Assembly (NCBI GenBank): GCA_030699455.1
Contig: JAUYMN010000010.1
Span: 1 to 40,195 of the forward strand
From: Nanobdellota archaeon
GTDB lineage: Archaea > Nanobdellota > Nanobdellia > SCGC-AAA011-G17 > UBA489
Length of the DNA stretch: 40,195 bases
Direction: 5' to 3'
Shown here: positions 6,360-32,816 of the stretch, in pieces
Numbering within the stretch: position 1 is the first letter of the stretch
How the letters are laid out: the number at the start of each line of letters is the position of its first letter
Translations under genes and position numbers: made by a program
Notes under the pieces: generated by a model
The model's input: only the letters and a program-made list of their open reading frames with translations
What the model was told of the DNA's origin: nothing
Databases searched by the model: none

Positions 6360-7183
6360 TAGAAAGACAGTTTGTGATGAGAAAATTAAGAGAATTTCAA
6401 ATACAGGAACACATAGGTAAAATTTTCTCTAAAACAGGATACTCCCATATTGAGATAAAAAGAACTCCTCTCGGAGAGAATGTTATAGTTTACACAACAA
6501 GACCAGGAATAGTAGTTGGAAAGAAAGGAGAAAATATAAAGAAATTAACAGCGTTGCTAAAAAATAAATACAGGCTCGATAATCCCCAGCTAGAAATTGG
6601 TGAAATAGCAAATCCAATGCTTGATGTAAACTATGTTGCTGATAGAATTGCTGCAAGTTTGGAAAGATTCTCACAAAAAAGATTCAAGTCAATAGGATAC
6701 AGGGTGCTCCAGGACATAATGGATGCAGGTGCAATTGGTGCAGAAATTGTTCTATCAGGGCTAATTCCAAGCTCAAGGGCAAAATCATGGAGATTTTCAG
6801 CTGGTTATCTGAAAAAATCAGGGGATATAAACCAATCATTAATTCATAAGAAGAATATAGGATTCACAAACAAAAGAGGTACAATCGGGATAAGAGTCAG
6901 CATAATGACCCCTGATATCAAGCTCATAGACAAAACACTTACTGTCAAGGATGAATTTTTAAGACCGGCAATAGAAGAAGTAGCGCACGAGGAGATAAAA
7001 CCTGAAAAGACTGTAAAAGTTTCACAGGCAGAAGGGATTCCAGTAATTGAAGAAGTAAAAGTAACAGATAAAACTGAAGAAGTAAAAGTAACAGATAAAA
7101 CTGAAGAGATAAAATCAACAAATAAAACTGAAAAAGTAGCAAAGAAAACAGTAAAAAAGTCTGCTGAAAAGAAGGAAAAATAA
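6356..7183 (+). CDS. rps3: Small ribosomal subunit protein S3 (uS3)
   Basis: 275 aa. Residues about 1-110 hold the type II KH domain with TTRPGIVVGKKGENIKKL. The C-terminal S3 domain follows (RVLQDIMDAGAIGAEIVLSGLIPSSRAKSWRFSAGYLKKSGD, GTIGIRVSIM). S3 lines the mRNA entry. The last ~55 residues are a low-complexity tail with tandem KVTDKTEE units (two identical copies and one diverged), which lengthens the protein beyond the usual 210-240 aa. The ATG overlaps the L22 stop. Confidence 0.97.
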   Translation: MIERQFVMRKLREFQIQEHIGKIFSKTGYSHIEIKRTPLGENVIVYTTRPGIVVGKKGENIKKLTALLKNKYRLDNPQLEIGEIANPMLDVNYVADRIAASLERFSQKRFKSIGYRVLQDIMDAGAIGAEIVLSGLIPSSRAKSWRFSAGYLKKSGDINQSLIHKKNIGFTNKRGTIGIRVSIMTPDIKLIDKTLTVKDEFLRPAIEEVAHEEIKPEKTVKVSQAEGIPVIEEVKVTDKTEEVKVTDKTEEIKSTNKTEKVAKKTVKKSAEKKEK

Positions 7184-7471
7184 ATGGCGATTACAAAGAA
7201 AAAGGAAATTGCACTGATGACACCAGAGCAGCTGGATAGTAAATACGCAGAAATAAAAAAAGATTTAATGAAACTGAATATGCAGCGTTCAAGCGGAACA
7301 TCACCAGAAAATCCAGGCATGATTAAAGCATCAAGAAAGGCAATTGCAAGAATACTTACATACAAGGCACAGAATAAGAATAAAAAAGTGCCAGAGGTTA
7401 AGCAGGAAATAAAAACAGCAAAAAAATCAGGCTCAAGTCAATCAAAAAAGGAGGTTTCAAGAAAGAAATAA
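7184..7471 (+). CDS. rpl29: Large ribosomal subunit protein L29 (uL29)
   Basis: The first ~65 residues are the L29 helical hairpin (LMTPEQLDSKYAEIKKDLMKLNMQRSSGTSPENPGMIKASRKAIARILT). A ~30-residue basic tail (KSGSSQSKKEV) brings it to 95 aa, longer than the ~65-70 aa norm. L29 contacts 23S rRNA near the exit tunnel. It starts directly after the S3 stop. Confidence 0.93.
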   Translation: MAITKKKEIALMTPEQLDSKYAEIKKDLMKLNMQRSSGTSPENPGMIKASRKAIARILTYKAQNKNKKVPEVKQEIKTAKKSGSSQSKKEVSRKK

Positions 7472-7472
7472 T

Positions 7473-7775
7473 ATGGTTGAAAGAGATCCAATAACAGGAC
7501 TTCCAAAAGAACTAGATGTTTGGGAAAATATTGCCAAAAGTGAACAAAGAATTCAAGTTAAGCTTGAAAAAAGGAAGTTCGGAAAAATAATTACAGTTAT
7601 AGTCGGCTTGGATGCCAAGGCGATCGACATCAAAGATGTTGCAAAGCAGCTTAAGTCAAAGCTTGCATGTGGTGGTACAGTAAAAGGAAACAATGTCGAG
7701 CTTCAGGGAAACCATAAGACAAGAGCAAAGGAAGAACTTGTCAACATGGGCTTTGCGGAGGAGTCCATTGATTAA
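7473..7775 (+). CDS. Translation initiation factor aIF1 (SUI1)
   Basis: 100 aa matching SUI1/eIF1 in length and motifs: DPITGLPKELDVWENIAKSEQRIQVKLEKRKFGKIITVIVGLD, then LKSKLACGGTVKGNNVELQGNHK. The factor binds the 30S platform near the P site and enforces start-codon selection. Its place between L29 and Rpp29 is the standard archaeal order. Confidence 0.96.
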   Translation: MVERDPITGLPKELDVWENIAKSEQRIQVKLEKRKFGKIITVIVGLDAKAIDIKDVAKQLKSKLACGGTVKGNNVELQGNHKTRAKEELVNMGFAEESID

Positions 7776-7776
7776 G

Positions 7777-8055
7777 ATGCAATGGAAAGCAAGAGACATT
7801 CCAAGGGCTGAATTCATTGGCAGGACAATCGAAGTTGTGGGGGCAGAAAATCCATCCCTCATAGGGATAAAGGGAAAGATTGTCAATGACACAAAGAGCA
7901 CATTTGAAATAGAAAAGAAAGACGGACAAACAAAAAAGCTTGTAAAAAAACAGGTAACAATCAAGACAAAAATACAGGGAAAAACAGTAATAATTGAAGG
8001 AGAAATTCTTCAGGGAAAACCTGAAGAGCGTCTGAAGAAAAAAATCAAAATATAA
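7777..8055 (+). CDS. rnp1: RNase P protein component 1 (Rpp29/Pop4 homologue)
   Basis: 92 aa from ATG 7777, one base after the aIF1 stop; a longer frame from 7693 would lie inside aIF1 and is rejected. The Sm-like barrel of archaeal Rpp29 is visible in IPRAEFIGRTIEVVGAENPSLIGIKGKIVNDTKSTFEIE, with KKLVKKQVTIKT following. It partners Rpp21 on the RNase P specificity domain during tRNA 5' maturation. Position between aIF1 and S17 is canonical. Confidence 0.93.
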   Translation: MQWKARDIPRAEFIGRTIEVVGAENPSLIGIKGKIVNDTKSTFEIEKKDGQTKKLVKKQVTIKTKIQGKTVIIEGEILQGKPEERLKKKIKI

Positions 8056-8056
8056 A

Positions 8057-8317
8057 ATGAAAAAAACATTAAAAACACACGGAAGAACATTTGTTGGTAG
8101 AGTTATCTCTGAAATTTTTCATAAGACAACAACAATAGAGTTTGACAGAAGAGTATATAACTCAAAATATGAAAGATTCCAAAAGAGAAAAACAAGAATA
8201 AAAGTTCACATTCCAGAAAATTTTAAAGTAAAGAAAGGAGATTTTTTGAAAGTGGCAGAAACAAGACCAATTTCAAAAACCAAAAACTTCCTTGCAATGG
8301 AGGTTGTTAAGCAATGA
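8057..8317 (+). CDS. rps17: Small ribosomal subunit protein S17 (uS17)
   Basis: 86 aa with the OB-fold signature GRTFVGRVISEIFHKTTTIEFDRRVYNSKYERFQKRKTRIKVHIPENF..KKGDFLKVAETRPISKTKNF. It is a primary 16S rRNA binder of the 30S body. Shorter than many archaeal S17 (~105-110 aa) because the N-terminal extension is missing. ATGA overlap with L14. Confidence 0.96.
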   Translation: MKKTLKTHGRTFVGRVISEIFHKTTTIEFDRRVYNSKYERFQKRKTRIKVHIPENFKVKKGDFLKVAETRPISKTKNFLAMEVVKQ

Positions 8318-28307: not shown

Positions 28308-29423
28308 ATGAACCATATATTTCACTTGGGGAGGGATCCAGAATTAAGTGCTCTGGAAATAGTTTCCTTCCTTGACAGAACTAACAGGGGATATAAACTT
28401 CTAAAAATAACAAAAAAGATAATGTTAATATCATTAGATAAATTTGACCCAATATATGCAATTAAAGCATTGGGTGGAACAATCAAGATTTCTTCAGAAA
28501 TAGACAATCCGGAGAATTATATAACAAAAGAGTTATCATTAATCAAATCAAAAAAAATAAATTATGGCATTAATGAAATAGAATCCTCAAAAGAAGCATT
28601 TAACAATTTAACAGACATAATAAAAATAACTGCAAAAAAAGAAAAATTAAGAGCATTTCACAAGCAAAAAACAGAAAGAGAGATTCCCCCGTCTAAATCA
28701 AAAAATTTAGATTTAGAATTAACACTTTATAAAAATAACATTTACAAAGTATCTGCAGTATCAGATCCAAAATCTTATGAAAAAAGAGATGAAAAAAGAC
28801 CTTATTTTGATCCGCTAAAAGTTATTTCGGTAAGGTTAGCAAAAATACTGATTAATCTGGCGCAGCCAAAAAAGAACTCAGTATTATTAGATCCTTTTGC
28901 AGGATTAGGAACTATTTTACAAGAAGCATCATTGATAGAAATAAAATCTATGGGATTAGATAAAGATCCATTAACAGTTAAAAAATGTCAAAAGAATTTA
29001 ATATGGGCCAAAGATAAATTTAAATTTAAAGTTTTTCCAAAAGTAATAAGATTAGATGTAGGTAATATGTCAAAGAGCACAAAAAACATTGACTGCATTG
29101 CCACAGAACCATATTTAGGCCCATACTTAAGAAAGCTGCCAAAAGAGCAGGAAGCAAGAAAGATTGCAGAGGAGTTATCCAAATTATATGAAAAATTCCT
29201 TAGAGAATCCTCAAAAATGTTAAAGAAAGGCTCAAAAATAGCTGTAATAATTCCAACATTTAAAACAAGAGATAATAAGCTAATCCGTGTAGGTTTTCAA
29301 TCAATGATAAAAAAATACAATTTTGATATATTTCAGCCACTTAAAAATAACATAATACCATTGGATTACACTATGAAGGGAAGCAAATTAAGACGTAAAA
29401 TCTATGTGCTAGAAAAAGTTTAA
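28308..29423 (+). CDS. Trm11/Trm-G10-like tRNA (guanine-N2) methyltransferase
   Basis: 371 aa. The N-terminal half is THUMP-like (FHLGRDPELSALEIVSFLD, with the DPELSALE signature of COG1041). The C-terminal Rossmann methyltransferase has SAM motif LLDPFAGLGTILQEASLI and GLDKDPLTVKKCQKNL. The catalytic loop reads TEPYLGPYLRKLP where N-methyltransferases usually have (N/D)PPY; the TEPYLG form is typical of archaeal Trm-G10 enzymes. It is expected to make m2G/m2,2G at tRNA position 10. Its end overlaps the convergent small frame at 29420. Confidence 0.85.
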   Translation: MNHIFHLGRDPELSALEIVSFLDRTNRGYKLLKITKKIMLISLDKFDPIYAIKALGGTIKISSEIDNPENYITKELSLIKSKKINYGINEIESSKEAFNNLTDIIKITAKKEKLRAFHKQKTEREIPPSKSKNLDLELTLYKNNIYKVSAVSDPKSYEKRDEKRPYFDPLKVISVRLAKILINLAQPKKNSVLLDPFAGLGTILQEASLIEIKSMGLDKDPLTVKKCQKNLIWAKDKFKFKVFPKVIRLDVGNMSKSTKNIDCIATEPYLGPYLRKLPKEQEARKIAEELSKLYEKFLRESSKMLKKGSKIAVIIPTFKTRDNKLIRVGFQSMIKKYNFDIFQPLKNNIIPLDYTMKGSKLRRKIYVLEKV

Positions 29424-29557
29424 CTTAACATTATTGCTCTTGGAATATCTTTAAAATGTCTGTCTCCAGTTAAAATTTTTGCATCTTCTTTTATATTTCC
29501 CATACTTTTGCAAAGTTGATAGGTTTTTTCTAAATCATCAATTTTAGTTTTCATCAT
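29420..29557 (-). pseudogene. PIN-domain C-terminal fragment (45 aa)
   Basis: The frame starting ATGATG at 29557 overlaps the stop of the nucleotidyltransferase gene. It encodes MMKTKIDDLEKTYQLCKSMG, then NIKEDAKILTGDRHFKDIPRAIMLS. The DAKILTGDRHFKDI part is the typical C-terminal acidic end of PIN endonucleases, but the N-terminal two-thirds are missing. It is either a decayed VapC or a small coupled protein. It ends inside the last codons of the convergent methyltransferase gene. Confidence 0.5.
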
Positions 29558-30105
29558 TTAATATTTATAATATCTTGAATTTGACCTTTCACAACATATC
29601 CATTGATTATATTTTTTATTAATCCAGTTTTCATTTTTTTAATCTCTTTTTTATTCTCAAAGACATGTAGTTCTATATTCCTATTTAACCTGCATTCATA
29701 AGTGTTTTTATTAAAATCTGGAATATTTCCGAGAACAAACATATCAACATCTGAATTTTTGTACCAATCCCCTTTAATCATGCTTCCAAAAAGAATAATG
29801 GTTTTTACACTAGTTAATGATTCTAATTTAGGAAGCAATCCACTTTTATGGAGTTGCTCAAGAGCATAAATTTTTTTCAAGGAATAATAAACTGGATTAT
29901 TACTCCCAACAGTAAAAAATGGAAATTCTCCTTTTCGTTTTATTCTTTTTATTAATCCTCCTCTCACAAATTTTTTCAACCATTTGTTTGCAACAGCCTT
30001 ACTTACTTTTGCAACATTTACAACTTCTTCAAAATGCCACTCTTTCAGTGGACTATTTTCTAAAAGAATTTTTAATACATCATCTTCTTTGCTTTTACTA
30101 GCCAT
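29554..30105 (-). CDS. Winged-helix/MNT-type nucleotidyltransferase protein
   Basis: 183 aa. Residues about 8-65 form a winged helix (LKILLENSPLKEWHFEEVVNVAKVSKAVANKWLKKFVRGGLIKRIKRKG). Residues about 85-170 form a minimal nucleotidyltransferase domain with the GSxxxGxxxxxSDxD motif (ILFGSMIKGDWYKNSDVDMFVLG). Proteins with this pairing often act as antitoxin-like partners that AMPylate or nucleotidylate a target, or as regulators. It overlaps a PIN-like fragment downstream. A TATA box (ACTTAAATAGT) 27 nt upstream suggests a leaderless transcript. Confidence 0.8.
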   Translation of the reverse strand: MASKSKEDDVLKILLENSPLKEWHFEEVVNVAKVSKAVANKWLKKFVRGGLIKRIKRKGEFPFFTVGSNNPVYYSLKKIYALEQLHKSGLLPKLESLTSVKTIILFGSMIKGDWYKNSDVDMFVLGNIPDFNKNTYECRLNRNIELHVFENKKEIKKMKTGLIKNIINGYVVKGQIQDIINIK

Positions 30106-30178
30106 AAATTAGTATGTCTCAGTAATACTATTTAAGTCTCTTGGTTTAAAATAATGGTCATTCCGCCAGCAATATAGG

Positions 30179-30193
30179 AGATATTGCATATCT
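30179..30193. promoter_or_regulatory. Palindrome AGATAT-TGC-ATATCT, possible operator
   Basis: A perfect 6-bp inverted repeat with a 3-bp centre lies in the spacer between the divergent nucleotidyltransferase and variable-protein genes. A further half-site (GCATATATCTT) lies just downstream. The winged-helix protein encoded next door is the obvious candidate binder. Inference only. Confidence 0.35.
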
Positions 30194-30231
30194 CTGCATA
30201 TATCTTATAAAATGGTTCTTATTAATAAATA

Positions 30232-30272
30232 GTAACATTTATAATTTCAAAAATATCAAATTTTTCATCAAA
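30232..30272 (+). promoter_or_regulatory. Promoter of the variable-protein operon (duplicated at 16.7 kb)
   Basis: The TATA-like ACATTTATAA at about 30236-30245 lies about 32 nt before the ATG, followed by an AT-rich leader ending TTTTTCATCAAA. The same sequence and spacing occur at about 16708-16746, so both were copied together. Confidence 0.55.
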
Positions 30273-31055
30273 ATGGCTTCAAAAACTAAAACAGGGGATT
30301 TTTCAAGTTACAGGTTAGAAGGAAATCCAGTAGAAACAACACCCATAATTGGAAATTTAATAAACAATGAGTTAGGAGCATACATTCTTGAAAGATTAAA
30401 CTCGAAATTTAAAGGAACAAGATTAGCATATCCTCCAAATGAAATGCCTCAAGAAGGACAGCCAATAAAATTCTCAAATTTTCCAAGGATATTGGATATA
30501 AACCAAGAATTAAGACAATTACCTGATATAAACATCAGACCTTTAACAGCAAGAGAGGCAGTAACATATTTTAATGCTAAAACAAAAGAAGGAAAACTTG
30601 TAATCCCTGAAAGAGACAAAACATATGCAGATACTATCTCAGTTTTAATAGCACCAAAAGAAGGAAGAAATGAAGCCCACGAAAATAGAATAATGGGAAT
30701 ACTTGGAATTTCAAGATTAGAAGAACCATTAGTGGTAAACGGATTAGGAGTAGCTCCAGCAGATAATGGAGATGGTTTTATTTTTGAAGAAACAGATGGC
30801 ATAACAACAGAGCCTTATCAGGCAATTTTAGAATTAGCAAAATCAAAAGGTGTTGCAGTTCGGCAATCTTTAGAACAATCAGGTCTTCGCAGGCTTTTCC
30901 GTAACCAGGGTAGACTGAGTGCCAGGGATGATAGGCTCTTGATTGCTAAGGGGAGTGGCAGGGTGCAGGTTATTCAGGATCCGAAGGATCCGCGCACCGA
31001 TTTAGAACTAGTAGACAGAGTATTACAAGAAGTAAGAAGAGGATTCACAAAATGA
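30273..31055 (+). CDS. Variable-cassette protein, paralogue 1 (putative DGR target)
   Basis: 260 aa, soluble, no signal peptide. Shares with the next gene the segments LNSKFKGT(R/Q)LAYxPNEMPQEGQP, PERD(K/E)TYAD and SGLRRLFR...GRVQVIQDPKD. The cassette at residues about 205-240 differs from paralogue 2 at 11 of 20 codons between constant flanks. Codons in the cassette (CGC, CGT, AGG, CTC, GTG, CCG) are GC-rich compared with the AT-rich body. The body has no enzyme motif I recognise. The fold of the variable end is unknown; the pattern RLxR...LxA...GRV resembles tails I associate with DPANN/CPR retroelement targets. It overlaps paralogue 2 by four bases. Confidence 0.7.
   Translation: MASKTKTGDFSSYRLEGNPVETTPIIGNLINNELGAYILERLNSKFKGTRLAYPPNEMPQEGQPIKFSNFPRILDINQELRQLPDINIRPLTAREAVTYFNAKTKEGKLVIPERDKTYADTISVLIAPKEGRNEAHENRIMGILGISRLEEPLVVNGLGVAPADNGDGFIFEETDGITTEPYQAILELAKSKGVAVRQSLEQSGLRRLFRNQGRLSARDDRLLIAKGSGRVQVIQDPKDPRTDLELVDRVLQEVRRGFTK
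30876..30991 (+). other. Putative DGR variable repeat 1 with 3' hairpin
   Basis: The order is a 27-nt constant segment (30876-30902), a 60-nt variable core (30903-30962) and a 27-nt constant segment (30963-30989). The hairpin GGATCC-GAA-GGATCC (30977-30991) overlaps the end of the second constant segment. Against the copy at 31643 the core differs at 21 positions and the flanks at none. DGR variable repeats have this layout, with an IMH-like constant 3' end and a downstream hairpin. Confidence 0.55.
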
Positions 31056-31864
31056 CAGCAGATTTTTCAGGATATATATTACCAAGAGGAAGAACTTTAG
31101 CAGTAGTTGATAACCTAATCTACGACGAATTAGGTAAAGAAGCATTAGAAAAATTAAACTCAAAATTCAAAGGAACACAATTGGCATATTCTCCAAATGA
31201 AATGCCTCAAGAAGGACAGCCATTAAGATTCTCAAACATAAGATCATTATTCCTAGAGCAAGCAGTCGGAGAACTAACAAATAACAAAATAACACTATTA
31301 AGCCCTGAACAAATATTAGCTAACTGGAATAATATTCCAGAAAGAGATGAAACATACGCAGATTCTTCACTCGCAATTTATCCAAATGAAGGTCCAAACG
31401 AAACACACAGAAAAAGAGCACTAGGAATAATTAATATATCCAATCCAGCAGCACCAATCATAGTGTCAGGATTAACAATTGCCATAGCAGACAATGAAGA
31501 TGTTTTTACATTAGAACCAACAAACCACACAGCATACAAGGAAGCACCATGGTTAGAAAAGACACAAATGATAACGTACAATCCAAAAACAGGAGAAATA
31601 GAACCTTCAGAAGATGGAATCATGGTTCAAGTTCCAAATGACCAATCAGGTCTTCGCAGGCTTTTCCGTGTCAGGGATGGGCTCGATGCCAGGTATGTTA
31701 GGCTCTTGAATGCGGATGAGGATGGTCGGGTGCAGGTTATTCAGGATCCGAAGGATCATCAAAAAAATTTAGAGCTTATACTAAAAAGAGAAGCATCAGA
31801 AATGCAGGCGAGATTGATGGGAGCATTAGAATATTTAAAAACAGGAAGCATTCCTAACAAGTAG
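31052..31864 (+). CDS. Variable-cassette protein, paralogue 2 (putative DGR target)
   Basis: 270 aa. Starts MTADFSGYILPRGR, overlapping paralogue 1 by ATGA. Shared blocks: LNSKFKGTQLAYSPNEMPQEGQP, PERDETYAD and the cassette SGLRRLFRVRDGLDARYVRL...GRVQVIQDPKD at about residues 198-235. Outside these blocks the paralogues have diverged considerably. The C-terminal ~35 residues after the cassette are a charged helix (EMQARLMGALEYLK), unlike most known DGR targets where the variable part is at the very end. Function unknown. A reverse-transcriptase fragment follows directly. Confidence 0.7.
   Translation: MTADFSGYILPRGRTLAVVDNLIYDELGKEALEKLNSKFKGTQLAYSPNEMPQEGQPLRFSNIRSLFLEQAVGELTNNKITLLSPEQILANWNNIPERDETYADSSLAIYPNEGPNETHRKRALGIINISNPAAPIIVSGLTIAIADNEDVFTLEPTNHTAYKEAPWLEKTQMITYNPKTGEIEPSEDGIMVQVPNDQSGLRRLFRVRDGLDARYVRLLNADEDGRVQVIQDPKDHQKNLELILKREASEMQARLMGALEYLKTGSIPNK
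31643..31757 (+). other. Putative DGR variable repeat 2 with 3' hairpin
   Basis: Same layout as repeat 1: constant 31643-31669, core 31670-31729, constant 31730-31756, with hairpin GATCC-GAA-GGATC at 31745-31757. Of the 21 core differences, 16 have A in at least one copy, which is compatible with adenine-directed mutagenesis of a lost or distant template. Confidence 0.55.
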
Positions 31865-31901
31865 ATTTTTATATTCTTTATTTTTATTTTACGTATCCTA
31901 G

Positions 31902-32113
31902 CAATATCTAAAAAGCTTAAAATTAGAGCTGCATCTAGAAAAATACAAAACTGGTTCAATCTCTAGAGAAAATATCTCAAAAAGTATAAATGGATGGCTT
32001 GCCTATGCCGAAGGTTGAATACCCATAACCTAAGAAAAAAAGTAAGAAATCAATTAAATGCCTTAAAATTAACTATCCCTATGCAAAAGCAAACGAAGTT
32101 CAAATCACATTAG
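31902..32113 (+). pseudogene. Reverse transcriptase C-terminal remnant (DGR/retron type)
   Basis: The frame from 31902 encodes LELHLEKYKTGSISRENISK then SINGWLAYAEG and stops at 32018. A shift at about 32015 continues NTHNLRKKVRNQLNALKL to a stop at 32113. Joined, this reads like the C-terminal segment of DGR- and retron-like reverse transcriptases, whose usual form is ...G.IS...I..S...W.(G/A)(H/Y)A.HANT..LRKK(I/V). The catalytic YxDD domain is missing. The gene is therefore a truncated, frameshifted fragment directly downstream of the two variable genes, where a DGR RT would be expected. No other gene lies in 31865-32147. Confidence 0.5.
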
Positions 32114-32147
32114 AAAAGCTTAAATAACTAAATTCTAAGATTATACC

Positions 32148-32429: not shown

Positions 32430-32768
32430 ATGACAGAAAAAACAAAAGATAATGTTGCGGAAGACCAAACCGTATTTGTTGGCAACAAACCGTTCATGAA
32501 AATTCTATAGATCAAGTAGCTATGGATCATGTATTACGTAACGGGAGTGGTCATGCAGTTCACAACACAAAATGCAGGAAAATCAGTGGTAAAAGCAAGA
32601 GGGAAATTTATCAGCAAGGCAGTAGATATAGCTGAGGTAACTACAAAGAGATTTTTAGAAGGGCAGGTGGATATTTCAGACATATACACTAATAGCGAAG
32701 AATTCAGGAATTCCGAGGGAAAGAATGTTAGAGTCTCAACAATAGAAATCACACTAAAAAAGAAATAA
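32430..32768 (+). pseudogene. alba: Alba chromatin protein, interrupted by a 33-nt insert with two TAG codons
   Basis: ATG 32430, with GGAGGAG just upstream, begins MTEKTKDNVAEDQTVFVGNKPFM. The same frame resumes at 32529 with YVTGVVMQFTTQNAGKSVVKARGKFISKAVDIAEVTTKRFL and ends KKK at 32768, a complete Alba sequence. Between them lie ten extra codons including TAG at 32508 and TAG at 32517. Removing exactly 33 nt (about 32499-32531) restores FMNYVTG, the family sequence. The insert contains a 15-nt imperfect tandem repeat. Either the gene is dead, the intact part is translated from ATG 32529 (79 aa without strand 1), or the insert is removed from RNA. By eye no clear bulge-helix-bulge forms. 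Confidence 0.8.
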
Positions 32769-32816
32769 CCAAACATTTAAAATAAACAAATTTAGTTTAG
32801 GTTTAAGAGGTGAATG

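Follow-up and report, generated by a model that had tools for sequence, protein, structure and literature searches.

The question raised by two tandem genes of an archaeal genome is whether a short segment that they share, in which a hypervariable core is enclosed by identical flanks, was produced by a diversity-generating retroelement (DGR), and whether it is still being diversified. The window that was analysed is a stretch of 40,195 nucleotides. Gene 1 (30273–31055, forward strand) and gene 2 (31052–31864, forward strand) are intact open reading frames coding for proteins of 260 and 270 amino acids, and gene 2 has a 4-nt overlap with the stop of gene 1. Both are assigned by family alignment to the target (variable protein) genes of DGRs, and they are the only two family members in the assembly. 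The variable repeat of gene 1, VR1 (30876–30990, forward strand), is formed of a 27-nt constant block (30876–30902), the core (30903–30960), and a 30-nt constant 3′ block (30961–30990). VR2 of gene 2 (31643–31757, forward strand) has the same organization, with a 27-nt constant block at 31643–31669, the core at 31670–31727, and a 30-nt constant 3′ block at 31728–31757, and is offset from VR1 by exactly 767 nt. The 30-nt constant 3′ (IMH-like) block is translated as GRVQVIQDPKD. The repeat block has a G+C content of 49–52%, compared with 34% for the window.

There are no differences between VR1 and VR2 in either of the constant blocks (27 + 30 nt). The cores, measured from the outermost difference to the outermost, are both 58 nt long and differ at 21 sites, which alter the residue in 11 of 20 codons. 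The probability of all 21 differences falling within 60 of the 116 positions by chance is about 1e-7. The initial annotation had described this succession of identical flank, hypervariable core, and identical flank, and the comparison bears it out: 27 nt are followed by 58–60 nt with 21 differences and then again by identical nucleotides. The length given there for the 5′ flank is correct, but the 3′ constant block is 30 nt long, slightly more than the claimed 27 nt. A recount also reproduced the presence of A in one copy at 16 of the 21 differing core sites. The adenines are found in 15/16 differences at codon positions 1 and 2, but in only 1/5 at position 3 (Fisher p = 0.004). The four third-position differences that lack A are not well predicted by pure adenine mutagenesis. 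The remaining parts of the two genes were said to have diverged heavily, which holds for the proteins overall (about 50% identical); however, the divergence is not uniform, as an 89-nt block near the 5′ ends of the genes is 90% identical.

Homologues of the target proteins are encoded in 16 of the 103 genomes of the order, including the genome studied here, and at the profile level in 37 of the 378 genomes of the class. DGR-type reverse transcriptases (RTs) are present in 43 of the 103 genomes of the order. On contig G310:C30 (locus L138), a VR (2355–2443) and a template repeat (TR, 2836–2924) are located by a family member, with 14/16 mismatches at A; no RT is detectable within about 3 kb downstream of this pair, which is the rest of the 6-kb locus. 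A cassette resembling QSGLRRxYR...GRVQV is positioned near the C-terminus in nearly all of the homologues. The internal position of the cassette had been considered unusual in the initial annotation; internal VRs are, however, reported to be common in nanoarchaeal DGR proteins (PMC5006420).

In several relatives the cassette lies next to a TR and an RT. Contig G088:C3 contains two tandem homologues, downstream of which lie a TR and an intact RT, and the mismatches between TR and VRs are at TR adenines in 14/14 and 9/10 cases. In G073:C1 a homologue, a TR, and an intact RT are located together, and 13/13 mismatches are at TR adenines. These two intact DGR cassettes have homologous targets with the same VR motif as the window, and the targets of G088 are in tandem as well; in contrast to the window locus, both retain a TR and a full-length RT. 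In G040:C1 (L130) the homologue directly precedes an RT broken by stops or frameshifts, and 14/14 mismatches are at TR adenines, whereas in G043:C16 (L078) it directly precedes an RT with six stops. The G040 and G043 loci are intermediate stages of DGR decay. The TR-VR-RT cassettes of the relatives, together with the common QSGLRRxYR...GRVQV motif, therefore identify the family as a DGR target family. Adenines of the G088 TR coincide with 13 of the 21 sites that vary between the two window copies, but with only 8 of the 39 invariant ones (p = 0.002). This alignment has one codon gap placed by eye, and its final four codons come from the G088 VRs instead of the TR. The ungapped comparison (p = 0.53) is invalid, as the window copies are one codon short.

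A relic of the C-terminus of a DGR RT is located directly downstream of gene 2 (31905–32068, forward strand). It was identified by a frameshift-aware RT profile built from 27 RTs of the order, by tblastn, and by HMM, and it reads YLKSLKLELHLEKYKTGSISRENISKSINGWLAYAE in one frame and then NTHNLRKKVRNQL in another. The relic is frameshifted and lacks about 40 codons internally, and the N-terminal approximately 250 codons are absent. Its score in the frameshift-aware search is 60.8 bits, compared with 23.2 bits for the next best place on either strand of the window and 21.9 bits for the best of 300 shuffles. The relic is also the top hit of a single-frame HMM search, albeit with a weak score (6.4 bits). 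The distance from the stop of the target gene to the equivalent RT codon is about 1.2 kb including the TR in G088, but only 41 nt in the window. Therefore, the TR and about 250 RT codons have been deleted from the window locus. No comparable RT relic was found beside the RT-less homologues of other genomes. The RTs of the relatives, including those of C5, a contig of the genome studied here, and of G088, carry LGNLTSQ or LGNMTSQ, which conform to [ILV]GxxxSQ in place of QGxxxSP; the part of the RT with this position is missing from the window relic. Among solved structures, the best match to the relatives' RT is 8ub7_A (E 1.7e-44), which we take to be the BPP-1 DGR RT.

The genome studied here is small and archaeal: its assembly of 770 kb in 28 contigs is 83% complete and encodes archaeal-type ribosomal proteins. 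Neither BLAST nor a pattern search allowing up to three mismatches detected a third copy of the window repeat, or a TR, in this assembly. The exact flank sequence has no match in the genome_contigs and viral_contigs collections, and no match was confirmed when the same collections were searched with the target proteins. The only intact DGR-type RT of the genome is part of a complete DGR with an unrelated target on contig C5 (L082, G000:C5), which has an RT at 6673–7746 (reverse strand), its own TR at about 7776–7866, and a VR at 8210–8300, with TR/VR mismatches at template adenines in 11/11 cases. The C5 TR has no sequence relation to the window repeat, and no intact DGR-type RT is present at the window locus, where only the C-terminal relic remains. 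Of the two checks proposed in the initial annotation, the search for a third copy of the flanks thus yielded nothing in the assembly, one of the two absences that were to count against a DGR. The search for an intact DGR-type RT found one, but it is that of C5, with unrelated TR and VR. The interpretation of the cassettes as variable repeats of a DGR, ending in a constant IMH-like 3′ segment, is partly supported: it is borne out by the homologues elsewhere, which adjoin a matching TR and RT and have mismatches almost only at template adenines, but not by a TR or intact RT at the locus itself.

Taken together, a DGR origin of the two cassettes is well supported, and their present diversifying activity is unlikely. 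The window genes are most likely a DGR target pair, the TR and most of the RT of which were deleted, and the VRs of which are probably frozen. With nothing but a relic left of the local RT, "fossil" or "orphaned DGR target pair" describes the locus better than "DGR" does.

Against frozen VRs speaks the possibility of a TR elsewhere in the genome, since the assembly is only 83% complete. The VRs might then still be diversified in trans, either from a matching TR in the unassembled part, with or without an RT of its own, or with the help of the C5 RT. The presence of that intact DGR RT in the genome favors such an arrangement, as do the 57 constant nucleotides that are without a difference although the adjacent RT has decayed; identical flanks would fit recent or ongoing homing. 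However, the 770 kb contain no TR by either search, the TR on C5 does not resemble the window repeat in sequence, and the local RT and TR have been deleted, so that we regard diversification in trans as unlikely. The C5 RT might work in trans with a TR outside the assembly. There is a slim chance of one particular scenario, in which the tandem targets lost their own TR and RT and the C5 RT, using an unassembled template, keeps them diverse; if true, the C5 RT would drive distant targets after the decay of the local cassette. That no retroelement was ever involved, and that the flanks are homogenized by ordinary gene conversion, to which tandem paralogues are prone, and the core is altered by diversifying selection, would agree with the 90% identity of the 89-nt 5′ block and with A not being favored among third-position differences, but is highly improbable given the adenine rule followed by the relatives' homologous cassettes against their adjacent TRs, the RT relic directly downstream of gene 2, and the A contained in nearly all position 1 and 2 differences.

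In both window copies, the constant 3′ (IMH-like) segment is followed by a hairpin. The hairpin 3′ of VR1 (GGATCC-GAA-GGATCC, 30977–30991, forward strand) and that 3′ of VR2 (GATCC-GAA-GGATC, 31745–31757, forward strand) both begin about 20 nt past the first nucleotide of the GRVQ codons. Several relatives have a hairpin at the same offset, with a differing sequence. The mean stem score of the hairpins is 4.03, compared with 2.74 ± 0.22 in shuffles, none of which (0 of 500) scored as high. A hairpin 3′ of the VR has also been described in other DGRs, those of nanoarchaea among them (PMC5006420).

The whole cassette is part of a 2.7-kb insert (29424–32109) between a methyltransferase gene (28308–29420) and the eS17/Alba/antiporter block. 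In the congeners G092, G093, and G095 the site is empty, and the methyltransferase gene directly abuts the eS17/Alba/antiporter block. At the right edge of the insert, the 3′ terminus of the methyltransferase gene is repeated (TTAGAAAAGCTTAAATAA; 32110–32127, forward strand). The same insert contains an HTH/nucleotidyltransferase gene (29554–30105, reverse strand), for which the sister genomes have no clear equivalent at this site. Further downstream, the Alba-like gene (32430–32769, forward strand) has an in-frame extra stretch of 33 nt (32499–32531) with two TAG stops, which is lacking in the three sisters. No clear bulge-helix-bulge intron structure was found there; the stretch may be an intron, but it may equally represent a small insertion or an error of the assembly.

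The orphaned target pair can be explained by the following sequence of events. An RNA copy of a single TR beside the DGR RT would have been converted to cDNA, with random bases incorporated opposite the template adenines. The cDNA would have homed into each gene between the common 5′ segment and the constant 3′ segment with its hairpin. Homing from one template would therefore leave copies that agree wherever the template has no adenine and diverge where it has one. The deletion of the local TR and of approximately the first 250 RT codons, and the decay of what remained of the RT, would have come afterwards. This would leave both target genes intact, with variable regions that are probably frozen, and a stub of the RT. 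Thus, retrohoming presumably took place at the window locus in the past, and the diversification of its cassettes appears to have stopped.

The target proteins may have a binding role. The AlphaFold2 model of the gene 2 protein (270 residues) has a mean pLDDT of 89, and its order of elements, beta-alpha-alpha-sheet-beta, is compatible with a C-type lectin (CLec) fold; however, a Foldseek search with the model gave no significant fold match. The family profile has no match among PDB chains, and no significant family was found for the targets in Pfam and NCBIfam. In the model, the GRVQV of the constant 3′ segment forms a beta-strand (228–231). In the archaeal DGR variable protein AvpA, the VR is likewise internal and precedes a C-terminal extension, the hairpin falls within the coding sequence, and a beta-strand is encoded by the constant 3′ segment (Handa et al. 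2016, PMC5006420). In contrast to these shared features, there is no detectable sequence relation between AvpA and the window targets.

RT-less "partial DGRs" are known from DUSEL4 Nanoarchaeota (Paul et al. 2015, PMC4372165). Like them, the window locus has a target gene, a VR, and cis elements but no intact local RT, and the intact DGRs elsewhere in the DUSEL4 genome have their counterpart here in the one on C5. Archaeal RT-less DGR fragments have been read as fossils or as remote targets, and the choice was left open (PMC4372165). The series from intact cassettes (G088, G073) through broken RTs (G040, G043) to a stub only, together with the RT stub itself, favors loss in place. Target genes thus outlive the machinery that diversified them, and such genes are missed by surveys that demand a nearby RT. 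The window differs from the DUSEL4 partial DGRs (PMC4372165) in the RT relic beside its targets and in the tandem arrangement of the target pair. RT-less archaeal DGR fragments (PMC4372165) and internal VRs (PMC5006420) are already known; the present analysis adds the remnant of the RT and the stages of decay seen in the relatives.
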